Assembly (NCBI GenBank): GCA_019347805.1
Contig: JAHWKR010000011.1
Coordinates: 1-64,000, forward strand
DNA: 64,000 nt
Reading direction: 5' to 3'
Source of the DNA: Methanobacteriota archaeon
Lineage (GTDB): Archaea; Thermoplasmatota; E2; JACPAO01; JAHWKR01
Below are positions 9,445 through 32,852 of the stretch, piece by piece. The position numbers were made by a program, and so were the translations under genes. Numbering within the stretch: the first letter of the stretch is position 1; each line of letters starts with the position of its first letter. The notes beneath the pieces are model-generated. The model had not been told where the DNA came from. It worked only from the letters and a program-made list of their open reading frames with translations, and did no database searches.

Positions 9445-10463
9445 CGTTGGACCTCCGCCTCGGTCGCTTCCTCGCCGGCGGTGTGGCGCACACCCTCGGT
9501 GCTTGGCTCGAGGACATACGGGATCCCCCCGGCACGGCCGATCGCTTCCGCGACCCCTTCCGGATCCAAGGTGAGGACCACGACGGAGCCGCCGCCGCCC
9601 GCACCGGTGAGCTTTGCCCCGTAGGTGCCGGGGACGGTGTGGGCGGCGTCGATGAGCCGCTGCAAGGACGGATGGTTCACACCCATCGTGTGCAGGGCGG
9701 TCTGGCAGCGGCCCATGATGTTGCCGAACGTGGCGAGATCCTCGGTGCGGAGCGCGTCGAGGCCTTCCCAGACCAACGTGCCGACGGCCTCCATGGTCTC
9801 CTCACCGAAGCGGCTGCGTTCGACGAAGCGGCGCACCTTGGCGACCTGCTCTCCTGTGTCGCTGCGCACGCCGGTCACGCCGATGACGAGGGCGAGCTTC
9901 GGCAGGCGGGCCCGATGGACCTCCCAAGCGCGGTCGTCGAGCGTGACGGACCAGAGATGCTCCAGGCCGGCGTCGGTGCGCCGTTCCGGGGCGAGCAGGA
10001 TGGCTCCGCCGGCGGTCGCGACGCTCGTGTCGTTCGGCGAACCGCCGCCTTGGGTGGCGCGCTCCGATTCGAAGGCGGCTTGGGCCACCTCGGCGTCGCT
10101 GGCGCCCGCCTGCAGGTCGTAAAGGGTGGCCGCCGCGGCGACGGAGAGCGCGGCGCTCGAACCCATCCCGCTCGAGGACGGGATGCCGGAGCGCGTCGTC
10201 AAGCGGAGCGCGGAAGGATCTTTCCAGACGCGGTCGAGGACCTGCATGAGATAGGAATGATAGCGGGATTCGAGGGGATGGCCGTTGACCGTGGTGGCGG
10301 AGGTGGAACGTTCCGCCGCGACCGCGGTGCGCATATCGAGCGCGACCGAAAGGCAAGGCATCCCGTAGACGACGGCATGCTCTCCGAGCAGGATGCACTT
10401 GGCCGGGGCCGTGGCGCCGGCGCGCATGCCGGAGGGTCGGTCTTCGGGTGTCTCGTGCGCCAT
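9441..10463 (-). CDS. mvk: Mevalonate kinase (GHMP kinase)
   Basis: CILLGEHAVVYGMPCLSVALD, PSSSGMGSSAALSVA, KLTGAGGGGSVVVL. Confidence 0.92.
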   Translation of the reverse strand: MAHETPEDRPSGMRAGATAPAKCILLGEHAVVYGMPCLSVALDMRTAVAAERSTSATTVNGHPLESRYHSYLMQVLDRVWKDPSALRLTTRSGIPSSSGMGSSAALSVAAAATLYDLQAGASDAEVAQAAFESERATQGGGSPNDTSVATAGGAILLAPERRTDAGLEHLWSVTLDDRAWEVHRARLPKLALVIGVTGVRSDTGEQVAKVRRFVERSRFGEETMEAVGTLVWEGLDALRTEDLATFGNIMGRCQTALHTMGVNHPSLQRLIDAAHTVPGTYGAKLTGAGGGGSVVVLTLDPEGVAEAIGRAGGIPYVLEPSTEGVRHTAGEEATEAEVQR

Positions 10464-25806: not shown

Positions 25807-26193
25807 CTAGAGCCGGCGGGAGCCCCAGAGGTCGTCCGGGAGGTTGTTGTAGAGGTCCTCTTCGGAGGCGGGCGCGCGGCGCTTCCTGACGCGGCCGCGC
25901 TCGTCCTCGGCCATCTGCTTGATGGCCTCTTTCTTGAACAGCCAGTAGTGGGTGCGCCACTCGCGGCCGTCGTAGAGGGTCGTCTCCTCGCGCTCGGTGG
26001 TGAGCATGCCCTCCTCCTCGAGGATGTAGAAGAGTTGCCGGTCCTCCGGCTCAAGGACGTTGTCGATGACCCGATCGTCGAAGCCGAAGATGTCCATGAC
26101 GAAGTTGGCGTCGCGGAACGCATCGTCCTCCGTGAGGCCGATCCTGTTCCCGATGGCCATTGCCAGGTCTTCCAATGTGACGACTTCTACCAT
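25807..26193 (-). CDS. Small archaeal protein (DUF6015-like)
   Basis: MVEVVTLEDLAMAIGNRIGLTEDDAFRDANFVMDIFGFDDRVIDNVLEPEDRQLFYILEEEGMLTTEREE; family name from memory. Confidence 0.65.
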   Translation of the reverse strand: MVEVVTLEDLAMAIGNRIGLTEDDAFRDANFVMDIFGFDDRVIDNVLEPEDRQLFYILEEEGMLTTEREETTLYDGREWRTHYWLFKKEAIKQMAEDERGRVRKRRAPASEEDLYNNLPDDLWGSRRL

Positions 26194-26437
26194 GCGAAGA
26201 GCCTCCAGACGATATGGTCCGACGCGCCCTCCCAAGGAGCGTCAGTATGTTGTTTTGTGTTACACGGAGTATTAAGACTTGTCGAGCAGCCCGGACTTTT
26301 GGACGTTTTCCAGGGGGATGCGCGACAGGTCTTCGGTCTTCCAGTGGGGACAGCCCGGGCGTGGCCGGACCGGTATATATGGCTGACGGCCCCCTCCGGA
26401 CCGGTACTGTATGCGCCTTTTTCGGGCGACATGTACA

Positions 26438-27100
26438 CTACTTCGCCTTCTTCGCCGAGCCGTGCTTGAGACGGGTGACCTCGGCCCGGTCGTTGTCGGT
26501 CATGCCGAGCATCTGGCGCACCGCCAGCGGCGGCTCCTTGAGGTAGGTGCCGAAGACATAGTCTTCTCGTTTCTTGCCGAAGACATGCCCCTCGACCTCG
26601 CGATGGGTGAAGACACGCGAACGGCCGCGGGCGATGTGCATCTCGTAGGGCATCGCGCCCTTGTAGATGCCGAAGTTGAGCTCGGCGAGCTTTCCGCGCG
26701 CCGAGGCGCCCGCCTTTCCAAGGAGCCAGAACGCAGCGACGAGCGGCGCGATGAGTTGAAGGATGGGCTGCAGGCGGTCGAGCCACTCGTTGCGCTCGTG
26801 TTTGGCCTGCGGGGTCGCCTCCGGGTCGGGGGTCTCCTGACCGGGCCGCGCGAAAGCGGGGACACCGCCCGGGGTGACGCCGACAGTGACCGGCTTGCGT
26901 TCCGGCTCCGGGATCTCGAAGCCCTGGCGGTTGGGCGCGGTGACGGTCTCGGACGTCAACTGGATGATGACGGCGTAGAGGATGGCGAGGGCGACGGCGG
27001 CGACGATGATCTGGACGCGCCGCTCGGCGAGGAGACGCTTGCGCGCCTTCTCATGCCCGTACGGGGTCCACACATCCTTGTCGCGCCGTTTCAACCGCAT
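26438..27100 (-). CDS. Membrane protein, unknown function
   Basis: 221 codons including stop, start MRLKRRDKDVWTPYGHEKARKR; two TM segments. Confidence 0.65.
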   Translation of the reverse strand: MRLKRRDKDVWTPYGHEKARKRLLAERRVQIIVAAVALAILYAVIIQLTSETVTAPNRQGFEIPEPERKPVTVGVTPGGVPAFARPGQETPDPEATPQAKHERNEWLDRLQPILQLIAPLVAAFWLLGKAGASARGKLAELNFGIYKGAMPYEMHIARGRSRVFTHREVEGHVFGKKREDYVFGTYLKEPPLAVRQMLGMTDNDRAEVTRLKHGSAKKAK

Positions 27101-27114
27101 TCCTTGGTCGTCTC

Positions 27115-27336
27115 CTATTTGCCGAGGCGAAGGTCGTCGAGGCCACGATAGCTCGGCCACCGGACGCCGTCCGCTCCTTTCACACGGCGGCGCCGCTGCG
27201 GCACCGTGCGCGTCGCCGCGACCACCGTGTGGATGCGCTCCCTGAGCGCGAACATGGCGCGGGCGCGCTCGACGGCGGCGACGGTCTCTTTGTCTTCACT
27301 GAATCCTGCGATCTTGATGTCTCTACCCGTGATCAT
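27115..27336 (-). CDS. Small protein, unknown function
   Basis: 73 aa MITGRDIKIAGFSEDKETVAAVERARAMFALRERIHTVVAATR; preceded by AAGGGTAGGACCTTCC. Confidence 0.5.
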   Translation of the reverse strand: MITGRDIKIAGFSEDKETVAAVERARAMFALRERIHTVVAATRTVPQRRRRVKGADGVRWPSYRGLDDLRLGK

Positions 27337-27382: not shown

Positions 27383-28015
27383 CTAGATGCGCGGTGCCTG
27401 GCATGGCAGGCAACGCTTCTCCGGATCCTCTCTCAGGAACCAGAGGTCGATCTGTCCCTCGCGCGGCCCTTCCGGGTCGCCCGAGTCGCTCGTGAAGCCG
27501 TCTACCTCGGTGGCCAGCTTCGTGACATCGACGACGACGACGAAGTTGTAGTCCTGGCCGGAACCGCTGTCGGTGGTCACGGCGCCCGTGTGGACGGTCC
27601 AGACGTGGACCTTGACCGTGAGGCGTTCCGTGGCGAGGTGGTTGCCGAGCATGTACTGGACCTCTTTCGGCTCGAGGTAGTACCACTCACGGACACTCCA
27701 GCTCGCGCCGTTGTCGTCCGTGAACGCGTACGTCTCCCCTGTGGGGAAGAGGTTCTTGCCCGACGGGTCGCCCGTCCCTTTCGGGACCGCGTAGACCCAG
27801 CCCTGGCTCGCCTTGTCGAGGACGACCACACCGTCGAACCAGCTGGTCTGTCCTGTTGCGAGCCCTGCGACGGCGGCCAGGTCCGGGTCGTACTTGGTGA
27901 GGTCGAAGAGGATCATGCGTCCCTCGACGTCCTCGGTCCGGACCTGTCCGGTCGCCGCGGCGAACGGGATGGAGCCGGCGATGATGATGACGGCGACGAT
28001 CGTCCTGAGCCTCAT
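27383..28015 (-). CDS. Secreted protein, tandem paralog family member A
   Basis: Signal peptide MRLRTIVAVIIIAGSIPFAAATG; VEGRMILFDLTKYDPDLAAVAGLATGQTSWFDGVVVLDKASQGWVYAVPKG; C-terminal CLPC. Confidence 0.75.
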   Translation of the reverse strand: MRLRTIVAVIIIAGSIPFAAATGQVRTEDVEGRMILFDLTKYDPDLAAVAGLATGQTSWFDGVVVLDKASQGWVYAVPKGTGDPSGKNLFPTGETYAFTDDNGASWSVREWYYLEPKEVQYMLGNHLATERLTVKVHVWTVHTGAVTTDSGSGQDYNFVVVVDVTKLATEVDGFTSDSGDPEGPREGQIDLWFLREDPEKRCLPCQAPRI

Positions 28016-28262
28016 GAGGCCACCTCCGTGGCCATCGGGTGCAGGGCGTACCGGGTCTCCATCATGATGTCGTTCCACCTCGTGGCAGGTGAACGATGGG
28101 TTGTGGATAGAAAAGGCTGTTTTCAGACTTCGTTTTCTGGAAAAGGGCGCGCTGGCGGTGGCGCTTCCAGAGGCGAACAGCCGCGAGGGGCCGGAAAAGC
28201 GGATGTTGTACGGGCGTCGGGATCGTGTGACGAAACGGCTGTTTCAACGGCTTTTGCGTGGT

Positions 28263-29048
28263 TCAGCGCTCGAGCCGCTTCGCAGGTCCCTTGGCGGGGT
28301 CGTCGACCGCAAGAAGCGCGGGGACCCGGTTGAGACCGAAGACCACCGTTGGTGGGTCCCTCATGGCGTCCGCTCCCATCTCCCGCACGACCGGGTCGGC
28401 GCCGGTCTGGACCGGTTCCAGAAGGGCACCCGCAACGGGCGGCGGAGAGACCGCGGGCACCGCCGGGGTCGGTTTGGCGACGATGCCCTCCGGGGTCGCC
28501 TCGAAACGGTCGGGGAAGAGACGGTCGAGGCGGTAGGTGATGGCCCAGTTGTAGCTGCCCTCGATCCCTGCCGGAGCGGGTTGGTGGGGGTCGATGTCAT
28601 GGATTTCTCCGACGCGCACCCCATAGGCGAAGTGGCTGGTGGGGGCGCCGAAAGTGCCGACGCCCAGATACTGGAACTCGTAGACGGTCCAGAGGACGCC
28701 GTAGCGGTCACGCACCTGGGCGAAGTCGCCGCTCGGGACGAGGGAAGGACTTATCCGGGGGTCTGGGTGGTCCGAATTCCACGCGAAGACCATACGACCG
28801 TCACGTTCGTCCAAGGCGCGGGAGGACGCGAACGCTCCGAAGAGATACGTCTCTCGTTGTGTGGACAAGCCATAGTCTACGGGTGGTGGAAGGGGCATCC
28901 CAGCCGCCGACGGCTCGATGACGGCGCGCAAGTAGGCCGAATGGCCCGCCACCAGGGCCGCCTCTTCTGGAAAACCGGCCGCCACTCCTGTCGACACAAG
29001 GGCCGAGACGACGACGAAGACACCGATCAAACGCACGGTCCGAAGCAC
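28263..29048 (-). CDS. Secreted protein, tandem paralog family member B (divergent)
   Basis: GTG start; signal peptide LIGVFVVVSALVSTGVAAG; ALVAGHSAYLRAVIEP matches ALVTGHTVYAKFVIDA of member C. Confidence 0.65.
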   Translation of the reverse strand: MLRTVRLIGVFVVVSALVSTGVAAGFPEEAALVAGHSAYLRAVIEPSAAGMPLPPPVDYGLSTQRETYLFGAFASSRALDERDGRMVFAWNSDHPDPRISPSLVPSGDFAQVRDRYGVLWTVYEFQYLGVGTFGAPTSHFAYGVRVGEIHDIDPHQPAPAGIEGSYNWAITYRLDRLFPDRFEATPEGIVAKPTPAVPAVSPPPVAGALLEPVQTGADPVVREMGADAMRDPPTVVFGLNRVPALLAVDDPAKGPAKRLER

Positions 29049-29440
29049 TTACGCGCACACTCGAACCGGTCCCATCGCTCAGGTCCGGTCATGAAGGCGC
29101 CCATCCTGGACGGATATGGTATGGTTAACTAGGGAAACCTTGGGCCGATGAGCCGGAGAGGGCCACCATATCCACCCTAAATGGAATTGGTGGAAGTAAC
29201 ATCATCCACTTTTCGAGGGGCGGAACGGTCGGCGGGGCCACGAGGTGGGCGGTCGATCGCCAGGGCGAGACAAAACGTCCCGTAGGTCAGGAGACAGGGT
29301 CGGCGGAGCTCGATCGAGACGCCGAAAAAGCGCCCCTCCGCCCATGCATCAGCGTGGATCGGAGGAGGAGGGGGACAAGGATGGGAAGAGAGGGACCGGC
29401 CGAAGCCGGTCATTCACCCGATTCAGTAGGCTTTCGCCGA

Positions 29441-31024
29441 CTAGGGGTACCCAGCGGGCGCCGTGGTGGTCGTGGCCGGCGTGGTGGGCGCGGTACCCTT
29501 CGTGTGAAGGGCCCACTGGCCACCGGTCGGGTCACTGAGGTACACGTAGAGATCCACGAAGGCGGTCTTGTGGTCCTCAGGGTAACAGTCCGGTCCGGTG
29601 GTACCCGAGCCGCTGGGCTGGCGGTTGTGCGGCCAGTCGAGGTTGTCGTCACGGCAGTTCTCACGGTGCTTGAGGACCGTGGTGTTGTCGTCGAACGAAT
29701 TACCCCGCATGATCTCCTCGGTCGTGGTCGGCGGTGCCGAGTGGACCGTCCGCCCGCGGAAGGTGTCGTCGAAGCTGAACGACGAACCGTCCGTGCAGAG
29801 GTCCACGAGTTCGACCGGAGTACCGATGCCGACTGGATCGAGGGCCGTGTGGTACGCACTGACCGCTGCCTCTCCGATGCCACCGCCGATCGGGTAGACC
29901 GACGAGTTGTTCAGGTTCTGGTCGGTCTGCTTCCCGAAGGCCTCGTAGATGTTGAGACCGGCGCAGGTGTCGACCTGAAGGGCGAACGTGTAGTACTCCT
30001 GGATCGTCGCGTCGTACTGCGGCGCGTGGATCTGGGTGATCCAGAGGCGCTCCTTGAAGAGGTCCTGGATGCTCCCGTTGCACTTGTGGCCGAGGTCGAA
30101 GCTGCCGGGGGTCACGGTCGAGTTGGCCGGGGAGGTCGTGTTGGCGACGACTCCGGTGTTGTCCGCCGGCGTCGCGTAGACCTCGCAGCCGTTCTCGTTC
30201 TGGGGGTCCGTGTAGGTCCACGGGAACAACTGGTTGACGATCCCCGAGACGGCCGTGCTGACACCGACAGGGGTGTGGGTGCCGGGTTGAACGTCGCCGC
30301 GGTCGGCTCCGACGAGCTCCTTCGGGAGGTCGAGGAGACAGTTGTAGTCGTACTCCTGGACCTCATGGTAGATGCCGTTCGGGTCGAGGAAGTCGAGGTG
30401 ACCGCGGTAGCGGAAGTTGCTGCCGTGGGCGGGGTCACAGTCGCCCTTCTCGACGGCGACCGCGTAGGCGCCGAGGATGTACGTCGTGTTGTATGGGGTA
30501 TCGGGGTCGATGTATCCATATCTTGCGAACTCGGACGCACAGTGGTCGATGTCCCGGTCGAAATCATAGTCCTGTTGCGCATCGTCGTACGGCGCGGCCT
30601 CGTCCTCATCGGACGGGTGCGCGCCCACCGTCTGGTCCAGGTTCTGACCGTTGAACCACACGACGCACTCGCGCTGGGCGGCGACATCCTTGATGACATC
30701 GATCTCGATATCGATATCGGGCTTCGTGTCGTTCACGACGAAGTAGCCGGCGATCGCGGCGAAGTCGGTCGGAAGACCGAGCGTGTTGTTCACGTCCGCT
30801 TGGAGTCTCAGGTCAATACTGAGCGCGTCGATCACGAATTTCGCGTAGACGGTGTGCCCAGTCACAAGGGCCGGGGGTTCACCAGTGGCGTTCGGTTTTC
30901 CGCTGCAAGTCGTCAGGTAGCCGGTCTGGTAGTTACAGTCCCCGAACTTCCAACCGTACGATGCGTAACCGGCTGGGATGAGTACGAGGATCCCGACCAC
31001 CGCGGCCAAAATCTTAGCGTTCAT
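29441..31024 (-). CDS. Secreted protein, tandem paralog family member C
   Basis: 527 aa; ALVTGHTVYAKFVIDA, CVVWFNGQNL, AVEKGDCDPAHGSNFRYRGHLDFLDPNGIYHEVQEYDYNC; SD-like GGAGGT before ATG. Confidence 0.75.
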   Translation of the reverse strand: MNAKILAAVVGILVLIPAGYASYGWKFGDCNYQTGYLTTCSGKPNATGEPPALVTGHTVYAKFVIDALSIDLRLQADVNNTLGLPTDFAAIAGYFVVNDTKPDIDIEIDVIKDVAAQRECVVWFNGQNLDQTVGAHPSDEDEAAPYDDAQQDYDFDRDIDHCASEFARYGYIDPDTPYNTTYILGAYAVAVEKGDCDPAHGSNFRYRGHLDFLDPNGIYHEVQEYDYNCLLDLPKELVGADRGDVQPGTHTPVGVSTAVSGIVNQLFPWTYTDPQNENGCEVYATPADNTGVVANTTSPANSTVTPGSFDLGHKCNGSIQDLFKERLWITQIHAPQYDATIQEYYTFALQVDTCAGLNIYEAFGKQTDQNLNNSSVYPIGGGIGEAAVSAYHTALDPVGIGTPVELVDLCTDGSSFSFDDTFRGRTVHSAPPTTTEEIMRGNSFDDNTTVLKHRENCRDDNLDWPHNRQPSGSGTTGPDCYPEDHKTAFVDLYVYLSDPTGGQWALHTKGTAPTTPATTTTAPAGYP

Positions 31025-31421
31025 GTTTCTGCTACACCTCCTTATTCACTTCGGATGAGCGGGAACGCTTTGGGCCGGTCTTGATCGACGTCCTCGGGTT
31101 CTTCGAACCCGAAGCGCCAGGTCTTGGTAGCCAGCTTCCGTGCGTCCACACCTCTCTCCTCCTTAGAGCAAGCTTTCGTCAAGGGAACAGTGGTTCCCGA
31201 ACGGAAAGTCTGCACTTTGTGAGAAGAGAGCTGGAGTATATATCGATTTCGTCAATTTAAGAGGTGTAACAGGAAATGAGTGGCTATTGTGACAAGTCAG
31301 CGAGGGGAATCAGAGTCTAATTCTGTCCCACCCACAGACTTGTCATCACTTCTGTTGAGTATATACCTGAAGCTAGATTGACACTATACTTACCTCTGAA
31401 AACAAATGGGCACTAGGAGAC

Positions 31422-31443
31422 ATTTGCCATCCCTATGGCAAAT
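31422..31443. promoter_or_regulatory. Inverted repeat ATTTGCCAT-CCCT-ATGGCAAAT beside GGTATATACC
   Basis: 9-bp perfect arms, 4-nt spacer; TATA-like palindrome begins about 6 nt away. Confidence 0.45.
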
Positions 31444-31973
31444 CTGTGGTATATACCGCGATTTAGGTGATGAACCTTCTCACCTTCAGAAGTTCCGGGA
31501 GATCCCACCGGGTCGACCGCGCCACTTCATGACCCGGCGGAGCCGGACAGAAGGAGCCGAGCTCTCCACCCTCATGGACAGAAAGTGGGGCGACCGGTAG
31601 CAAGTCGGCAGCGATCGTCGGTATGCGGACCACCCGGACGCAGTCGCGGAGAAAAGCCGGGCGCGCACGGCGACCAAGACCCTCGGTCGGGGACGGTGGT
31701 CCAGTAGCGAGTCGACGAGCGGTCCCGATCCGGTGTCGAAACCCGCGCGGCCAGGTCGACAGCGGAAAGACCGGGACCGAAAACAGACAGCGCGACGGCA
31801 CGCGACCAGCGCGATTTGTCGGAGCATCGACAAAAGATCGATCGGACCCCTTCCAGCGAGACGACATCAGAAGGGACACGAAAAGAAACAGCGAAAAAAG
31901 ACGCGGGTGACCCTTTCCAGACAAGAAAAGGGGGGAGAGAGAACGGGGGGAGAGAACGGTTGAGGGTCAGGGT

Positions 31974-32852
31974 CTACTGGCCGGCCCAGACCTCGAACTT
32001 GGTCTTGTTCGGGTCGCTGACGTGGGCGCAGTAGGGGTCGTTCGCGCATTCCTCTTCCGTGCCGTGGAAGGGGGTGCCGTCCGCGTAGGTGGTGCCGAAC
32101 TTGGTGAAGTTGCCGCGGTCCTCCTTGTCGTAGTAGAGGTCCACCTCGAAGGTGTTGTGCTCGTGCAGCGTGTCCTCGCCCGCCTTGAGGCCGGAGGAGC
32201 CGTTACAGACGTGGTCGCTCTCCGAGGCACAGTAGGAGTCGCCGTTGTTGACCTCGTCCGTGGTGCCGCCACCGGTGCCCTCGTGGGTCGTGGTGCCGCG
32301 GCCGCCGCCGAGGAGGAGGTTTCCGCTCTTGTAGTACCAGGTGTCGATGCCGGTCGCGAAGTTGTAGATGCGCCCGGGGTCGAAGGCCTGGATCGGCGGG
32401 TCCTGCACCCGGGCGTGGGTCGGGGTGACCCAGACATGCTTCGTCTCGTTGAGACCGAGGTAGCCGTCCAAGACCGTCTCGGTCTTGAGGCCGGACCCGC
32501 ACGAGTACGTGTAGTGCGCGATGATGTGCGTCACGTTGTTGGGGTCACGGAAGGCGATCTTGTAGTCCTGGAACTCGAAGTTCTCGCCGTCGCGCGGGTC
32601 GCACTGGCCCTTGGCGACCGTATAGATGAACCCGTCCTGGACGGTGTTCAAGACGGTCATGCCGTTGAACCAGACGACCTTCGACTCCACGATGCCCGCG
32701 ATGAGCGCGACATCCGGGTCGAAGCCGCCCATGTTGGCGTACACCGTGTGACCGGTGACGACGGTCTTGTCCTGTAGCGTGGTCGCGGCGGCGGCCATCG
32801 GAAGTCCGACGACGCCAGCGATTATCAGAGCGATCAGTTTCTTGTTCATCAT
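31974..32852 (-). CDS. Secreted protein, tandem paralog family member D
   Basis: Signal peptide MNKKLIALIIAGVVGLPMAAAA; VVTGHTVYANMGGFDPDVALIAGIVESKVVWFNGMTVLNTVQDGFIYTVAKGQCDPRDGENFEFQDYKIAFRDPNNVTHIIAHYTYSC. Confidence 0.75.
   Translation of the reverse strand: MMNKKLIALIIAGVVGLPMAAAATTLQDKTVVTGHTVYANMGGFDPDVALIAGIVESKVVWFNGMTVLNTVQDGFIYTVAKGQCDPRDGENFEFQDYKIAFRDPNNVTHIIAHYTYSCGSGLKTETVLDGYLGLNETKHVWVTPTHARVQDPPIQAFDPGRIYNFATGIDTWYYKSGNLLLGGGRGTTTHEGTGGGTTDEVNNGDSYCASESDHVCNGSSGLKAGEDTLHEHNTFEVDLYYDKEDRGNFTKFGTTYADGTPFHGTEEECANDPYCAHVSDPNKTKFEVWAGQ

Follow-up and report, generated by a model that had tools for sequence, protein, structure and literature searches.

TrmB-type regulators (PF01978) control sugar transport and metabolism in the clusters where they are known, and usually sense cytoplasmic sugars. 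ZnuA-type zinc-binding proteins (PF01297) are secreted or extracytoplasmic, carry a His-containing loop and adopt a two-lobed fold. Multi-domain archaeal surface proteins are built from TSP3, RCC1, Ig or PKD domains. We compared these systems with a minus-strand gene cluster from a Thermoplasmatota archaeon, in which the genes A to D encode members of one putatively secreted family; the window below is the whole 64,000-nucleotide stretch of DNA that was analysed.

Like ZnuA, A to D are predicted to be extracytoplasmic, the family has a His-containing loop, and one relative in another genome (G092) adjoins znuA/znuB-like and NikR genes; however, none of A to D matches PF01297, and the structure model of A is antiparallel beta. 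In a second class of the phylum, family genes are interleaved with TrmB genes, but here TrmB would act on genes for secreted proteins, and the window cluster lacks TrmB. A paralog in the same genome carries TSP3 and RCC1 repeats, and Ig-like or PKD proteins lie near some family clusters, whereas A to D consist of the new domain alone.

The secreted family, together with a co-inherited membrane protein that we named WTPYG after its N-terminal motif, looks like a real, undescribed cell-surface system. We tentatively regard binding of a ligand or metal at the surface, with WTPYG as membrane partner, as the best explanation of it. If this role is true, the genes would make up a surface module in little-known Thermoplasmatota archaea, some of them from hypersaline settings. 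What is new here is the two families and the module that they form, and deeper remote-homology searches could yet tie the family to a known fold.

Family membership and distribution of A to D

The genes of the cluster, which run in the order D, C, B, A, WTPYG, and the D–C gap are as follows:

31974..32852, minus strand: gene D, 292 aa, ATG start, 6 Cys in the mature part
31025..31973, no strand assigned: D–C intergenic region, 949 bp, 56% GC (about 49% at 31000-31499)
29441..31024, minus strand: gene C, 527 aa, ATG start, the long member, 12 Cys
28263..29048, minus strand: gene B, 261 aa, GTG start, a divergent member
27383..28015, minus strand: gene A, 210 aa, ATG at 28015, the short member
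26438..27160, minus strand: WTPYG protein, 220 aa from the likely ATG at 27100, the single-copy partner

The first-pass annotation had described A to D as four consecutive minus-strand open reading frames with hydrophobic N-terminal signal sequences, and the coordinates, lengths and motifs it gave were all borne out; the signal peptides were called by eye, not with a dedicated predictor. Its description of C and D as Cys-rich agrees with the counts of 12 and 6, and the CLPC that it noted in A, near the end of the protein, holds its 2 Cys. The mature part of B has zero Cys.

We built a profile from nine relatives in other genomes, with the window sequences excluded, and scored the four proteins against it. 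A, D, C and B reached 116.1, 106.2, 44.4 and 20.7 bits, respectively, while shuffling each mature part 1000 times gave maxima of 9.0, 11.2, 9.4 and 2.9 bits. Since the scores lie far above the shuffle maxima, the observation of related genes is real. Direct phmmer matches gave 44-46 bits between A and D and 28-32 bits between C and D; B joins only through the external profile and a weak match to A (8 bits), and is the least certain member. By these comparisons, A to D are paralogs of one archaeal family of proteins with predicted signal peptides, which suggests that they are exported and located at the cell surface.

The four proteins had been reported as having no recognised function, and searches of Pfam, NCBIfam, PHROGs, PADLOC and the PDB returned no known family that would change this; a profile match to a characterised family, named beforehand as refuting the observation, did not appear. 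With E values of up to 1 allowed, A to D still matched nothing in Pfam; the NCBIfam hits were noise (best E 0.08, far below cut-off), and no PHROGs family was hit. Ten D-type relatives likewise matched nothing in Pfam, and eight C-type relatives had no Pfam match over the cut-off and one below it. In the PDB, neither the sequences of C and D nor a D-type profile found a significant match; the best match of the D-type profile was ZnuA, at a non-significant E of 0.6 over 29 columns of a His-rich loop. An AlphaFold model of A residues 22-202, made from a hand-picked alignment that combined window and named-locus sequences, had a mean pLDDT of 69 and an antiparallel beta core at about 85-90. Foldseek found no significant relative of it in the PDB or among viral models, with TM-scores all low and no ZnuA among the listed matches. 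The model of D reached a mean pLDDT of only 45 and was therefore unfit for a fold search. A role in anti-phage defence was rejected, as PADLOC models match neither A to D nor WTPYG; so was a phage or plasmid origin, as searches of viral contigs and of plasmids, at their given sensitivity, returned no relative.

Of 393 genomes of the phylum that were searched with a profile, 9 carry the family, and a single genome can hold up to 10 matches. Seven of the nine carriers are all seven sampled genomes of one other class, including Thermoplasmatales archaeon SW_10_69_26, Thermoplasmata archaeon CSSed11_322R1 and MAG107; the remaining two are the window genome and G003, from the same order. The family thus spans two classes and extends beyond tandem arrays, which departs from the lineage-specific tandem array first proposed. 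MAG107 (JAIVGT010000207.1) is labelled Halobacteriales, a label that is probably wrong; its contig matches a contig of G113, which belongs to the class of SW_10_69_26. Genomes outside the phylum were covered by pattern-based scans of a genome collection only, in which D alone gave no match and the alignment gave three named loci.

The window genome has two further C-like genes side by side on another contig (C6). In the first (L010:5805-8786, about 990 aa), a C-type domain is fused to TSP3 and RCC1-like repeats; the second follows it directly and ends at 10338. A serine-recombinase-like gene lies on the same contig at 2738-3895 (L010). The tree places C firmly with the two C6 copies (100/99); D attaches to this group with weak support (87/87), A is weakly paired with a gene of G003 (85/62), and B, on a long branch, has no certain position. 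The C-type genes of the other class are likewise well supported as a group (98/99), separate from the first, and long C-type proteins may therefore have arisen twice. As for the proposed expansion by duplication, the genes are paralogs of one family, but the tree and identities of 18-33% point to old duplications, and a recent tandem duplication of all four was rejected on these grounds. Only C and its two C6 copies appear as a well-supported recent expansion.

The WTPYG protein and the cluster neighbourhood

The WTPYG gene, which the first-pass annotation had missed, lies downstream of A, 222 bp from it as annotated. The protein has two hydrophobic segments with a Pro-rich loop between them and a conserved NFGIYKGAMPYEM...FGKKR tail, which suggests a two-TM topology with the tail facing inward. 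Just downstream, at 25807-26235, is a gene for a DUF6015 protein (PF19479), a stretch of which weakly resembles TFIIE-alpha.

A WTPYG profile found one copy in each of 8 of the 393 genomes. All eight are among the nine carriers of the secreted family, and in 8/8 the gene lies inside the family cluster. The assembly of the ninth carrier, G003, has a completeness of 79%, and the contig with its family gene measures just 1.6 kb. Co-occurrence across the 393 genomes gave a Fisher's p of about 7e-16, but this value is inflated: seven of the eight genomes belong to a single class, and independent events are few. The linkage hints that WTPYG may be a physical partner of the secreted proteins. Under the ligand-binding explanation, it would hold or receive them at the membrane, with the conserved tail on the cytoplasmic side.

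In the second class, the gene order is TrmB, D-type, TrmB, one or two C-type genes, WTPYG. This order was seen in G092, G118, G108 and G122 (with an extra small gene ahead of WTPYG), and it holds in G100, where the second TrmB, overlooked by the gene caller, was recovered by tblastn. In G113 it is spread over split contigs, and in G081 both TrmB genes stand around D and WTPYG lies between two C-type genes. Pfam confirmed the TrmB identity (PF01978). Three genomes have a double-HTH regulator close to the cluster, and in three the cluster is preceded by a large Ig-like surface protein. A large protein with nine PKD domains (L051:2117-6241) and a relative of it (L054:17393-19001) also lie near clusters, together with DUF2070 membrane proteins. 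In the window, a tblastn search of positions 20000-41000 found no TrmB near the cluster, and the genome's own TrmB genes are located elsewhere. Because the neighbourhood is conserved, the module can be studied as a unit and not as isolated hypothetical genes; it brings together two families, the secreted one and its WTPYG partner, that are absent from the libraries searched. We found no paper linking the second class with TrmB plus secreted proteins or surface glycoproteins.

We wondered whether this arrangement could reflect outside-in sensing, in which the secreted proteins would be the ligand-binding parts and WTPYG the membrane part of a receptor that reports to the TrmB or HTH regulators. 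The position of the TrmB genes, flanking the D-type and preceding the C-type genes, the nearby double-HTH protein in three clusters and the predicted inward-facing WTPYG tail would fit such a receptor. However, the window cluster has no regulator, domain searches with WTPYG found no recognised signalling domain, and the sugars that TrmB proteins sense are as a rule cytoplasmic; we hold sensing to be unlikely. A fuller version, in which a variable set of disulphide-bonded secreted paralogs that bind a ligand, perhaps a metal, would signal through the one two-TM protein to the paired TrmB, with site-less paralogs as decoys or structural parts, is decidedly unlikely. Under the preferred explanation, surface ligand or metal binding, the TrmB pair within the second-class cluster would instead tune expression.

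Motifs, cysteines and candidate functions

Alignments of the family revealed the conserved motifs GH(T/S), WFN(D/G), DPNG..W..EY, YNF..VD, and HxH ahead of VD(L/I). GH occurs in nearly all members, and the majority of D- and C-type members have HxH before VD(L/I). D carries VTGHTVY, WFNG, DPR, DPN, YNF and HEH...VDLY, with the residues of interest encoded as follows:

32748..32750, minus strand: codon of D His35 in the G-H-T motif, from the alignment and motif table
32157..32165, minus strand: codons of D HEH, residues 230-232, followed by VDL at 237-239; putative metal-binding HxH-VD motif

The motif table of the window genes shows that D has both GH and HxH-VD(L/I). C retains GH, and EDHKTAFVDLY stands where HxH-VDL would be. 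B retains GH (VAGHSAY) without HxH-VDL, and A has neither. The His that corresponds to His35 of D, present in nearly all members, is absent from A, where GR takes the place of GH; as HxH is missing as well, the putative site in A seems degraded. The two His motifs and the Asp suggest a putative metal site, intact in D, partial in C and lost from A and B.

The number of Cys in the presumed mature part was even in 29/29 members and in 6/6 further ones, i.e., 35/35 with zero treated as even. These are not 35 independent trials, since the members are related to one another. The even counts suggest that the proteins contain disulphides and are probably fully disulphide-bonded outside the cell.

One neighbourhood offers a possible link to metals. 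In G092, genes for ZnuA, an ABC-3 permease and a NikR-like protein (L068:4325-8714, contig C83) adjoin a C-type member, which lies 85 bp from the convergent znuB-like gene. We treat this as a lead only, because the other solitary family members have unrelated neighbours.

Family membership, neighbourhood, WTPYG co-occurrence, cysteine parity and the conserved motifs were all computed directly. The mechanism that we propose goes beyond them. A to D would leave the cell by the Sec route and fold outside, with their cysteines paired, into beta-rich, disulphide-stabilised proteins that bind a ligand at the cell surface. An outside location fits the C-type domain that is fused to TSP3 and RCC1 repeats. 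The ligand would probably be a metal ion, held at G-H, HxH and VD(L/I) in the members that keep the motif (D, and C in changed form), and A and B, without the site, would be structural or accessory. The metal idea draws on the conserved residues and the one convergent neighbourhood, and metal binding by family members is put forward as a faint suggestion of the sequences. Against the mechanism as a whole stand the two site-less members, A and B, and the lack of a fold or sequence relative of known function.

A close rival is that the proteins are structural parts of the envelope (S-layer-associated, sheath or adhesin-like) that bind no ligand, with WTPYG as assembly factor or anchor. The variable long inserts, the N-glycosylation sequons in C and D (10 in C), the Thr-rich C-terminus of C and the predicted disulphides would all suit such a role, as would the TSP3–RCC1 fusion and the large Ig-like surface protein adjoining the cluster in three genomes. 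Yet a scaffold would not need a pattern as specific as GH/HxH-VD, the pairing with two regulators suggests a regulated and not a bulk role, and neither a sortase-type nor a TM anchor was seen in A to D. On balance we regard a purely structural role as possible but doubtful.

The same His/Asp motif, together with secretion and the many diverged copies per genome, could also indicate extracellular enzymes with a metal centre, such as hydrolases, with the inserts setting the substrate of each paralog. Searches matched no enzyme family or fold, however, and A and B would be inactive, which makes this the least probable of the readings considered.

The D–C intergenic region

The gaps between the four genes had been described as long, A/T-richer and structured, unlike the rest of the window. 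From the results, the D–C gap alone is unusual in composition, and the window has four longer gaps. A 500-nt stretch of the D–C gap folds well relative to shuffles (z = -6.7), but 146-nt pieces gave z between -0.8 and +0.4, and in an Rfam search no family reached its gathering score. A structured RNA was rejected as unsupported on these two results; since the signal is gone in the shorter pieces, the z of -6.7 is best read as the effect of mixed AT-rich and GC-rich blocks.

The gap is also rich in one short motif. The window contains 6 copies of TATATAC where 0.13 would be expected; 5 of them are in the D–C gap, at 31236, 31359/31360 and 31449/31450, two of the sites being palindromic GTATATAC. 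These sites may be promoter or operator elements, and the one at 31233-31244, some 210 bp upstream of the C start, is a candidate TATA box. The separate gaps and the TATATAC before C are compatible with the individual regulation that had been suggested for the four genes, and prove nothing. The sixth copy of the motif lies at 26373, ahead of the DUF6015 gene.
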